NCBI RefSeq assembly: GCF_041381155.1
Contig: NC_091147.1
Location: forward strand, 10,996,837 to 11,060,836
DNA: 64,000 nucleotides
Reading direction: 5' to 3'
DNA from: Argopecten irradians
Taxonomy: Eukaryota; Mollusca; Bivalvia; Pectinida; Pectinidae
Of this stretch, positions 6,424-45,300 are shown one piece after another. The position numbers were made by a program, and so were the translations under genes. The notes under the pieces are model-generated. The model did no database searches. It worked only from the letters and a program-made list of their open reading frames with translations, and was not told the DNA's origin. Position 1 is the stretch's first letter. Each line of letters opens with the position of its first letter.

Positions 6424-9400
6424 TCAGGATCTGAAGGCTCCATATGAAGCAGCTTTACGTATAAATGCCTTGACCACTGCTTCATCCAAGTGACTGAAAG
6501 CCTCGGTTTGAGTCACTACCGTCATATGGTTCATGGCAAAACGGAAACAGAACTCCTCCAGCTCCTGTTGATAAGAAAATGGAGTTTATTACAATCATAA
6601 TTTTCAAATATTTGTCCTCAAGGGGAAGAAATTACCTATAATCAATATGACCAACTCTTTTTGAAAATTCCTATTGGAAATTCAAGCTGGATATTATTTA
6701 GCAGGGTTTTAAATTCATGTGCCTGTGAATTGTCTAGTGGCCAAAACCTTGACAAAAGAGACAGCCAGAGAATTGAGTTGTAATTTAGCTGCTGTCATCC
6801 TTGATATTATGGTTATTGATACTTTTATCATCAAATAAAAGTCATGCACTGTTCTATATCCTCATATCTGTAATTAACAAATGATGGCTGTTTTCAGTTA
6901 CCTTGGCCTCAAACTTGATGGCAGCAGCATACAACATGGCCACATTGTCCACATTAATGCCCCTCTTTATGATCTTCTCACAATGTTTCTTTAACAAGCA
7001 TTCACAGTAGGCATTAGCCAAGTCCAACAAACCTAAGGATAGGTAACAACAATCCATACATCAGCAGTAATAATTAATGACATCCTGTATACACCAACAG
7101 ACCTTAGGATAGGTGACAACAATCCTTACATCAGCAGTAATAGTTAATGACATCCTATATACACCAACAGACCTAAGGATAGGTGACAACAATCCTTACA
7201 TCAGCAGTTATAATTAATGACATCCTATATACACCAACAGACCTAAGGATAGGTGACAACAATCCTTACATCAGCAGTAATAGTTAATGACATCCTATAT
7301 ACACCAACAGACCTAAGGATAGGTGACAACAATCCTTAAATCAGCAGTTATAATTAATGACATCCTATATACACCAACAGACCTAAGGATAGGTGACAAC
7401 AATCCTTAAATCAGCAGTATAATAGTTAATGACATCCTATATACACCAACAGACCTAAGGATAGGTGACAACAATCCTTACATCAGCAGTAATAGTTAAT
7501 GACATCCTATATACACCAACAGACCTAAGGATAGGTGACAACAATCCTTACATCAGCAGTAATAATTAATGACATCCTATATACACCAACAGACCTAAGG
7601 ATAGGTGACAACAATCCTTACATCAGCATCAGCATTAGTAATAGTTAATGACATCCTATATACACCAACAGACCTAAGGATAGGTGACAACAATCCTTAC
7701 ATCAGCAGTAATAATTAATGACATCCTATATACACCAACAGACCTAAGGATAGGTGACAACAATCCTTACATCAGCAGTTATAATTAATGACATCCTATA
7801 TACACCAACAGACCTAAGGATAGGTGACAACAATCCTTACATCAGCAGTTATAATTAATGACATCCTATATACACCAACAGACCTAAGGATAGGTGACAA
7901 CAATCCTTACATCAGCAGTTATAATTAATGACATCCTATATACACCAACAGACCTAAGGATAGGTGACAACAATCCTTACATCAGCAGTAATAGTTAATG
8001 ACATCCTATATACACCAACAGACCTAAGGATAGGTGACAACAATCCTTAATCAGCAGTTATAATTAATGACATCCTATATACACCAACAGACCTAAGGAT
8101 AGGTGACAACAATCCTTACATCAGCAGTAATATTAATGACATCCTATATACACCAACAGACCTAAGGATAGGTGACAACAATCCTTACATCAGCAGTTAT
8201 AATTAATGACATCCTATATACACCAACAGACCTAAGGATAGGTGACAACAATCCTTACATCAGCAGTTATAATTAATGACATCCTATATACACCAACAGA
8301 CCTAAGGATAGGTGACAACAATCCTTACATCAGCAGTTATAATTAATGACATCCTATATACACCAACAGACCTAAGGATAGGTGACAACAATCCTTACAT
8401 CAGCAGTAATAATTAATGACATCCTATATACACCAACAACCTAAGGATAGGTGACAACAATCCTTACATCAGCAGTTATAATTAATGACATCCTATATAC
8501 ACCAACAGACCTAAGGATAGGTGACAACAATCCTTACATCAGCAGTAATAGTTAATGACATCCTATATACACCAACAGACCTAAGGATAGGTGACAACAA
8601 TCCTTACATCAGCAGTAATATTAGTTAATGACATCCTATATACACCAACAGACCTAAGGATAGGTGACAACAATCCTTACATAGCAGTTATAATTAATGA
8701 CATCCTATATACACCAACAGACCTAAGGATAGGTGACAACAATCCTTAAATCAGCAGTTATAATTAATGACATCCTATATACACCAACAGACCTAAGGAT
8801 AGGTGACAACAATCCTTACATCAGCAGTTATAATTAATGACATCCTATATACACCAACAGACCTAAGGATAGGTGACAACAATCCTTACATCAGCAGTAA
8901 TAGTTAATGACATCCTATATACACCAACAGACCTAAGGATAGGTGACAACAATCCTTACATCAGCAGTAATAGTTAATGACATCCTATATACACCAACAG
9001 ACCTAAGGATAGGTGACAACAATCCTTATCAGCAGTAAATTAATGACATCCTATATACACCAACAGACCTAAGGATAGGTGACAACAATCCTTACATCAG
9101 CAGTAATAATTAATGACATCCTATATACACCAACAGACCTAAGGATAGGTGACAACAATCCTTAAATCAGCATGTACATCAGCAGTTATAATTAATGACA
9201 TCCTATATACACCAACAGACCTAAGGATAGGTGACAACAATCCTTACATCAGCAGTAATAGTTAATGACATCCTATATACACCAACAGACCTAAGGATAG
9301 GTGACAACAATCCTTACATCAGCAGTAATAGTTAATGACATCCTATATACACCAACAGACCTAAGGATAGGTGACAACAATCCTTACATCAGCAGTTATA

Positions 9401-42300: not shown

Positions 42301-45300
42301 CAGAGGCCTTATATTTCTCTAAGGGTAGGACGCTTAAAAAATCGGAAAAAAATGAAGTGCGCTTAATAGGACCTATGTAACCTTTCACAAAAGGATTGCA
42401 CAGAGAAAGCCATTAATGGATTTTAAAAATAAATAAAGTTGAGAAACCTATAGTGGATTTTCATATTTTCAGTCTGCGTTTAAGTCGTTGGTGACATTGA
42501 GGCCTCAAAAAGGAAAGGGGTACTTTAATACTGGATTGAATATATCTTTAGTCCAATAATGCCTTAAAAGTTGTTTTTTTTCAGTATATTCAATTAAAAA
42601 ATCACTTCCTTTTCTTCCACAAATAAGTATAGTGATCATCCAGAACTTTTTTTTTAACTTGGGCAAATTCAAATTCATAAAAGCTTCTTATAGAACATTT
42701 TTAAACTCATGCAAATTCATAAACAACTATATATGGAATTGGAAATAAACAATATCAATAATTATTATAATATAATAGACTTACCAGCGTAACTGTGCGG
42801 AATCACTGTTTTAACGTCCTCTTTCAGACGTGTGTCAAAAGTGAAGTAGAAATTATTTGTGGTGGCCCGAGTACAGTCCACTACATTGACCACCTCAGCA
42901 TGGACCTTCATTTGTAACATCGACCCAGACGTATACACAACCTACAGCAAACCAGGAAATATTAATCAGCTCTGAAACTAACACATTACCTAGTCATCTA
43001 CAGTATAGTTTATAAGAGACACTTTTCACTGCTAATGCTTACAGAGTTATCTACTCTAGGATGAGTTTATTTATTTCTCAGCATTTCAGGGCTCCTATCG
43101 AAAACCATATTATAGACAAAGCATATATGATAACAGACACTGCTACAAGGATGTTTTGGTTTGCCTTTTTTCCACAAATCTACTGACTGTTAAGAAATGA
43201 TGATCATGAAATGGATAAGAAAGACAATCTCTGATTTAATTTCATCATACATATAATATAAGAAAATATAGGGAAAGGGTAATTGTACAGCATCAATGAG
43301 TTTCAAAATTAATTCAAATAGAAAAGTTTATGTTAATGTTTTACATCAAGATATATGTACCGGTATGTCAATTTCAACACAATTTGTATTGTTTTAATAT
43401 GGAGACTTACCTGAGAAGATAAAAACAAAACAGATCCAACTTCCACAGGCTTCATAAACAATATATCATCTACTGCCGTTACATATGGTCGTGACTTGCT
43501 GAAAGCAAGTAGTTGCAAAACTTCAAAATTACAAGCAGAAACAGGCGAACTGTTTTGATTTAAAGAAAAAAATTGAAAAGAACAGAAAATCGTTATAACA
43601 ACTTCAATTACATAAAAAATGCATTATAAGTATATCTGATTCAATGGAACATGATTCTGGTTGTAGGCCTACCAATACATAGCAGCATTTGTCCAAGCCA
43701 GCTCAAAAGCCTTCCTCATCAAAAAGCCTCCAAATATCTTGTTATATAAATTTCTTTGCTGGGAATAGAATAAAAGTCAAATATCAAAAACAAGTACAAA
43801 TTATACATATTATAAACAGTTTTATAATGATGATGATGAGCATTATTATAAATTATTATTGTCCTTCCTCTATATGTATATAGATGTGGAATGGGACACA
43901 AAAGGATGGGACTTAACATGAGTAACACTACATAGCTTCACTTCATGGTACATCCTTCATAGTTGAGGGGTTACTATCAGTGACGTTATATCCACCCCTG
44001 GACTATCTGACAGTAAAACTGGAGACATGAGAACAGAACAGGTAATTTAGTCCTTTGATTTACATCAAATGAATTGTTTAACAGAACACTGCGGTTAACT
44101 GTATGGCTTTGAATTTGGACATTGCTCTCTTTGTAGTCTTCACAGAAAGTCTTTGCAGGCCTGTGATTGGTCATATTTTTTCCTCTTGAACTGCCTGCAG
44201 TTTTACTATTTGATAGTCCAGGGTTGGATATAATGTCAGTAATCGTAACCCCTGGAGTATGGAGGATGTTCATGATAGAGCCATCAAATAAAATGCATAG
44301 AGTCTGATTTAAACTACAGGTGAGTAAACAATACCTCTGGGAAGCAGATAGTCAGATTCTTGAGTAGTGTTTTCTCCATCCATTCACTGTTGTCTGGTTT
44401 TACACGGACACGGAAACTTGCTGCACTGTAACACAGAGTGGCTTTAAATGATTCACTGTAACCAGTTAAGTAAGAAATCTTTAAAAAGGAAGTACAATTA
44501 AGTCTTATACAAAATGTATCAGGATAAGATACCTCTAAATTATTTTTCAAAATATTTTACACTGGTGTGAGTGCATTAAAAAATGAACATACTTTTCTTG
44601 GTTTTTTCTTGGTTTTTCAGTTGGTTGGTGCATGTAGTAATTCAAAAATCATTTGAGTATGTCAAATTTTAGGAGAATTGTTAAATGTAAATTCATCATA
44701 TAGCAATTGCCAGAGAATTTGGAAATGAATCAGATGATCCAATTCTTCATGGTCAGACAATTTTTTGTAGAGTTATCCATTGTATGTACAATTTCAACAA
44801 CAAACTACTCCAGTCACATTTACATACATGTATTACTATTGCATGAAGTAAATTTCTGTTTTTTGAGTCATATTATCTACTACATGAATTTTTAATTCTT
44901 GAAGTCCCCATCAGCTGCATCAAAATCACTTACCTAGTGTCTAATGTCTGTAAAAACAAGTCATGGATCAGTTGTCGTTCTTCCTCAGATGGAGGAGTCT
45001 TCAGAAGGGTTCTCTCCCCTTCAAGTTGACGCTTTACTTTGTTACCTTCAAGGAAGTACAGCAATTTTAAGGAAATAATAAAAGTACAGAAAGTACTGAG
45101 GAGGAGTCTATCAAATTAATCTATCAATTTTAACATTAGGTGGCATTTTGATATTTTTCTACAGGCGATGGCCTTCACATTAATTGGGAAATTCTTTTCT
45201 TTATTTCATGATTTCGGGAAGAGAAAGTGACAAAATCTATACTTAAATAAGGAAATTTATTATAACTTACTTTCTCCTAATTCAAATAAACGTTCCTCTT

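Follow-up and report, generated by a model that had tools for sequence, protein, structure and literature searches.

A 64,000-nucleotide stretch of the bay scallop Argopecten irradians genome (RefSeq assembly GCF_041381155.1, contig NC_091147.1, positions 10,996,837 to 11,060,836 of the forward strand; hereafter the window, whose own numbering is used throughout) carries five tandem duplications, with units of 46, 54, 70, ~95 and 960 bp, that each contain a splice junction, three of them a donor and two an acceptor. Four of the five lie in an RCBTB-like gene and one in an acyl-CoA thioesterase gene. That these duplications straddle exon–intron boundaries had been claimed in an initial annotation made from the letters alone, and it is borne out by Tandem Repeats Finder (TRF), self-BLAST and exon models, with the ~95-bp case being weak. 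Our preferred explanation, to which we give a probability of roughly 0.7, is that these are minisatellites of the "mirage" type described in lancelets, that is, blunt break-repair duplications that crossed junctions by chance, were tolerated and then expanded by minisatellite turnover. The phenomenon is real, was partly misdescribed at first and is of an already named kind, seen here at larger scale than in the known cases compared and probably in another group of animals.

Results and Discussion

The RCBTB-like gene (6424–21565) comprises 14 coding exons with Pfam RCC1 repeats and a BTB domain; in our hand-built model 13 of 13 introns are of the GT–AG type and the open reading frame runs unbroken over 530 aa, on which grounds its junctions appear firm by sequence. 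Like the thioesterase gene and all five duplications, it is on the minus strand. Three of its duplications were detected by TRF, which is blind to exons: a 70-bp minisatellite of 42 units (7024–9982) of the acceptor type, with the acceptor of exon E13 (6902–7032) within the unit; a 46-bp minisatellite of 76 units (15034–18509) of the donor type, with the donor of exon E4 (18479–18569) within the unit; and a 54-bp array of 3.5 units (19943–20133), likewise of the donor type, with the donor of exon E3 (20121–20287) within the unit. Degenerate and probably older repeats continue from the 54-bp array deeper into the intron, the whole region spanning 19743–20133. The thioesterase (ACOT9-like) gene runs from 36400 to past 48616 and was recognized by Pfam 4HBT and by PDB matches that are acyl-CoA thioesterases. 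The donor of its exon at 42785–42941 (exon model; Pfam 4HBT) is duplicated in a 960-bp head-to-tail pair, consisting of an exon-side copy at 41866–42826, which includes 42 exon bases, and an intronic copy at 40906–41865, the exon-derived end of which (near 41826–41865) holds an intact decoy donor. The two copies abut with a gap of 0 and are 95% identical over 977 columns (self-BLAST). The names RCBTB and ACOT9 are provisional, the searches giving the domains. They had been called neighbors, which they are not: an aprataxin gene (26770–30999, plus strand; top PDB match aprataxin, E 4.4e-63) sits between them.

The fifth duplication, of ~95–99 bp, copies the acceptor of RCBTB-like exon E8 (13149–13339) once, with the segments 13300–13363 and 13398–13462 aligning locally at a score of 34, and its decoy acceptor has lost the AG. 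This score was matched by one of 3000 random adjacent pairs, in which the members share ~20 bases so that the score has a floor of 20, and it was reached at one of 3261 stepped window positions with no shared bases, that position being 49411. There, a near-tandem pair (49411–49635; 77 columns, 78% identity), upstream of the modelled thioesterase exons and off modelled junctions, outscores the ~95-bp case. The evidence for the latter is weak, and the duplication itself is old.

The share of exon inside the units amounts to 31 of 46 bases, 9 of 70 (7024–7032), 42 of ~960 and, as judged by eye, about 13 to 22 of 54, and is slender in two of them. In the exon models, each of the five duplications leaves an undamaged junction on the exon side. 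The duplications are apparently of several ages, because the ~95-bp pair has diverged while in the 46-bp array 62 of the 76 units show neither substitution nor deletion relative to their consensus (insertions uncounted). Recurrence, as put forward in the initial annotation, is real, but a special process acting at junctions is not shown.

Within the 46-bp array the far-edge unit differs from the consensus at 3 positions, the exon-edge unit at 1 and a few inner units at 4–12. A few variants make up the 70-bp array in mosaic fashion; there, the exon-edge unit has 4 differences from the consensus, 40 of the 41 others have 0–2 and one other has 4, which makes the exon-edge unit one of the two most divergent. 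Concerted evolution with exclusion of the edge units is thus seen in the 70-bp array and more weakly in the 46-bp array. The motif GGTCTGTA occurs 73 times among the 76 units of the 46-bp array and CCT[AT]AGGT[CT]TG 41 times among the 42 units of the 70-bp array; the AG/GT signals survive in many copies, not in all.

These features recall the "mirages" of lancelet Adh3 and globin genes, which also span junctions (PMC3087553), and the view that no named system of this kind exists cannot be upheld. As reported there, mirage units measure 10–72 bp in Adh3 and 150–160 bp in the globins, both kinds of boundary are involved, decoys bear AG/GT, edge units escape homogenization, RT-PCR (reverse transcription polymerase chain reaction) suggests regular splicing, and the BflGb6 mirage has 6 and 3 units in two haplotypes; PGBD5 and troponin C provide further lancelet cases (PMC3902484). 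The scallop loci share with the published descriptions a unit that spans the boundary (five of five), 5′ as well as 3′ boundaries, AG/GT kept in many copies, excluded edge units, an occurrence in several genes and an unharmed coding exon. They differ in copy number (76 and 42 versus 3 and 6 in the BflGb6 haplotypes), in the one unit of 960 bp versus the 10–160 bp described there, and in the host being a bivalve; moreover, the lancelet descriptions cover splicing and instability, and the present one a single sequence.

Other published systems are more distant. A tandem duplication across an intron–exon boundary of a potato RdRp gene made a new intron (PMC4974935); the duplicated segment crosses a junction in both cases, but the extra copies in the scallop apparently lie within the old intron, the coding exons of the RCBTB-like gene being continuous without an extra intron position in an exon model built from this sequence alone. 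Human duplicated genes have variable internal tandem repeats at exon–intron boundaries (PMC2812944), which are likewise boundary minisatellites that may alter splicing; those are described for recent paralogs with altered gene structure, while the coding exons are unchanged in our models. Intronic minisatellites are known from lophotrochozoan genes, in intron 3 of an abalone TSSK1-like gene (PMC6905558) and intron 1 of an earthworm metallothionein gene (PMC12783039), with a unit that the portions of these reports at hand do not describe as spanning a junction. No splice-junction minisatellite from a mollusc was found among the matches listed in a search of open-licence papers by title and abstract opening, which is weak evidence.

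The two genes had also been described as free of large arrays lying wholly within introns, which proved incorrect. The last thioesterase intron (36444–42784) contains a 21-bp palindromic array (36620–37195) and a 155-bp array resembling the Pearl/HINE elements (37393–38697, 1.3 kb), which together with an ACGG microsatellite occupy 36620–38779. Another 155-bp Pearl/HINE-like array (23649–24798) lies probably within a 5′ intron of the RCBTB-like gene; all three arrays were found by TRF. Pearl and Cg_HINE are non-autonomous Helentrons of bivalves, reported to have central repeats of ~160 bp, a GTCC-like microsatellite and a palindrome (PMC7492417). By eye, the 155-bp arrays are like those ~160-bp tandem arrays, and both adjoin an ACGG-type stretch and a hairpin, a resemblance that by itself would make a bivalve source of the DNA probable. 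In contrast to the junction duplications, such repeats are brought by mobile elements and not built from the local junction; the 21-bp and 155-bp arrays look to be borne by mobile elements rather than to be local copies, and we treat them as a separate class. Flanking modules of HINEs (subterminal inverted repeat, GTCC-like microsatellite, palindrome) were looked for by eye at the 46-, 54- and 70-bp arrays and none was seen; these arrays border their own exon and plain intron, and HINE-like flanks occur only at the two 155-bp arrays. In the last thioesterase intron a nested element at 36598–38840 was also noted, in which a 21-bp inverted repeat (GGCAAGCCAAGTTACTTTTTA) flanks the palindromic array and the Pearl/HINE-like element.

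Smaller repeats off junctions comprise, by TRF, a 10-bp repeat of 3.1 copies at 25760, 11-bp repeats of 4.0 copies at 41294 and 42249 and a 4-bp repeat of 18.8 copies at 38707. A sensitivity sufficient for the ~95-bp case also picks up a stronger near-tandem pair, that at 49411, and a weaker one at about 47086 (ranges of about 47004–47156 and 47026–47200), both off modelled junctions. Self-BLAST returned 10 rows outside the big arrays, some of which are dispersed repeats and pairs off junctions, as in an ungapped scan.

Chance, Possible Hotspots and the Proposed Origin of the Duplications

The expectation from chance was calculated within the window, with arrays collapsed to one unit, for the RCBTB-like, aprataxin and thioesterase genes (58 exon edges in ~21.7 kb; a doubtful exon at 49077–49208 was left out). 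Arrays were counted when the unit was at least 20 bp and the copies at least 3, and TRF rows that covered only a portion of an array already counted were dropped. A tolerated unit would cross an exon edge with a probability of 0.13 (46 bp), 0.15 (54 bp), 0.19 (70 bp), 0.25 (95 bp) or 0.86 (960 bp). For the three locally derived arrays, all of which are at a junction, the combined chance is ~0.004. The three mobile-element arrays are not part of this figure, nor is the 960-bp pair, which has two copies, nor the ~95-bp duplication, which was detected by its homology to the exon. Multiplied over all five duplications the chance falls to ~0.0008, and the probability that at least 3 of 6 arrays lie at a junction is 0.10 once those borne by mobile elements are entered as misses. 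The initial annotation had held chance placement to be unlikely. The figure for the three local arrays speaks for this, but the test is post hoc and concerns one window among an unknown number scanned, and junction enrichment in this window is suggestive only.

These numbers provide an argument for an unlikely though not negligible alternative, namely that tandem duplication has its mutational hotspots at junctions, through R-loops, breaks linked to the spliceosome or a paused polymerase. The three local arrays and the 960-bp pair all straddle junctions, and the same pattern occurs in several lancelet genes. Against it stand, besides the post hoc statistic and its rise to 0.10, the probability with which a 960-bp unit would cross a junction anyway, the near-tandem pairs off modelled junctions (49411–49635 and about 47026–47200), and the fact that donors and acceptors are both affected with no common motif noticed by eye. 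G-skew on the transcript strand is inconsistent, at 0.00, 0.28, 0.22, −0.03 and −0.07 for the 46-, 70-, 54-, 960- and 95-bp units respectively, and the R-loop explanation offered initially finds no consistent support in it.

At the breakpoint pairs of the 46-, 70- and 960-bp duplications no microhomology was found (0 bp in three of three). As reported in PMC5730883 and PMC8355091, nearly all polymerase theta tandem duplications have microhomology, and those that arise when staggered breaks are filled in and then end-joined look free of it. We therefore rejected a microhomology-driven origin, given 0 bp in all three clear cases. In the first of the steps that we envisage for the mirage-type origin, DNA close to an exon edge would suffer a staggered break or paired nicks, and fill-in followed by end joining would yield a head-to-tail copy, tens to hundreds of bases long, that needs no microhomology; some such copies would cross a splice junction. 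The duplicated segment would then be an exon tail with an intron head, or an intron tail with an exon head. In the second, a junction-crossing copy would be nearly neutral, because one complete junction stays beside the exon body and the extra copies are all intronic; duplications entirely within an exon would mostly be purged by selection. In the third, to which the observed pattern points, unequal exchange or slippage would expand and homogenize the array, up to 42 and 76 units, with edge copies tending to escape. On this view chance and tolerance suffice for the placement at junctions, to which a modest mutational bias, beyond the proof of one window, may perhaps be added. Selection keeping the copies that leave one intact site, as suggested initially, is retained here in its weaker form, as tolerance.

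Several observations weigh against this explanation. The break-repair origin is based on three junctions, read after mutation over an unknown time. The exclusion of edge units is weak on the exon side of the 46-bp array, where the unit differs at one position. The ~0.004 for three of three local arrays leaves room for a junction-specific bias. Finally, in a position weight matrix (PWM) the real E13 acceptor scores 4.87, and the 40 pattern-matching decoys of the 70-bp array all score less (39 at 1.2 and one at −0.13), which could hint at selection; this contrast amounts to one event in a homogenized array, and the PWM is a small one, trained on 28 sites of which one is 5 bp out of place. The misplaced site is a thioesterase acceptor that was set at 44420 (PWM and G-skew) or 44424 (chance calculation), the phase-consistent position being 44425; the offset touches one PWM training site and leaves the conclusions unaffected.

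Predicted Consequences for Splicing

Use of a decoy would truncate the protein. With the first, second or third decoy in use, the predicted protein stops after 194 or 207 of 530 residues in the 46-bp array and after 449 of 530 in the 70-bp array, so that a premature stop follows for three of three decoys at each of the two arrays tested. Presumably exon definition leads the splicing machinery to the site beside the exon.

We consider it very improbable that the extra sites are kept as useful, whether by drawing splicing factors to a weak site or by adjusting expression as poison sites. In favor are the premature stops that decoy use would cause, the E4 donor, which is the second weakest of 29 sites by leave-one-out PWM, and the many copies of GGTCTGTA in the array beside it. 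However, the E3 donor is middling, the thioesterase donor is strong and the E13 acceptor ranks 9th from the bottom among 29, so that no common rule of site strength holds across the duplicated junctions, and the E8 decoy is without its AG. Also in favor, changes per site are somewhat rarer at the splice positions than on average over the remaining positions in both arrays, with 6 changes at 9 sites (0.67 per site) versus 1.14 in the 46-bp array and 3 changes at 9 sites (0.33 per site) versus 0.77 in the 70-bp array. Small as it is, this shortfall turns into an excess in the 70-bp array (0.12 for the other sites) once three hypervariable sites are dropped; moreover, homogenization alone can preserve the motifs. 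Neither preferential loss of splice positions nor clear selection on them was found in the 46- and 70-bp arrays. Nothing shows a function of the extra sites, and the benefit proposed for them initially is unsupported, decoy use being predicted to end the protein early in both arrays tested. Just as improbable is an assembly or haplotype artefact, in which the assembler collapsed, expanded or duplicated the arrays or the 960-bp pair: the 46-bp array does have long runs of identical units that are hard to assemble, but the 960-bp copies differ by ~5% and join cleanly, the 70-bp units form a mosaic of variants and the surrounding exons are intact.

As mirages, the scallop arrays extend a little-studied lancelet phenomenon to a mollusc genome, with long arrays and several duplications within 36 kb. 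If junction-centered arrays are common outside lancelets, they would serve as natural experiments on how the splicing machinery passes over dozens of near-identical decoys, and as a steady raw material for new introns. The present evidence is for tolerance and not for a new system, and the reading as a special process can be tested in any annotated bivalve genome. A broader proposal, which we regard as unlikely and slightly more speculative than hotspots in these genes, is that junctions are a preferred birthplace of minisatellites in distant animals (lancelets and probably bivalves) through transcription- or splicing-linked breaks and blunt fill-in, mirages then being a general class of animal mutation.

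Other Features of the Window

The window has a G+C content of ~34% and is eukaryotic DNA. Near 26.6 kb the minus strand reads GAATG|GTAAGT, which resembles a donor and could close an exon of the RCBTB 5′ untranslated region, and the interval 26600–26770 may hold a common divergent promoter for RCBTB and aprataxin. Around the first 155-bp array, remnants of a reverse-transcriptase-like frame ("SCILDFSKAFDKV", "LFADDTMT"), split by the element that carries the array, were recognized at 22740–25550 by eye and from the list of open reading frames. A short repeat, "ggtatcactttgggccatttta", occurs twice, at 13659–13763 and 14797–14955, with 74% identity over 112 columns; the copy at 14797–14955 has inverted ends like those of a miniature inverted-repeat transposable element and lies just past the far end of the 46-bp array. 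On the minus strand at 60900–62250 the sequence resembles, by eye, part of a zinc-finger gene.

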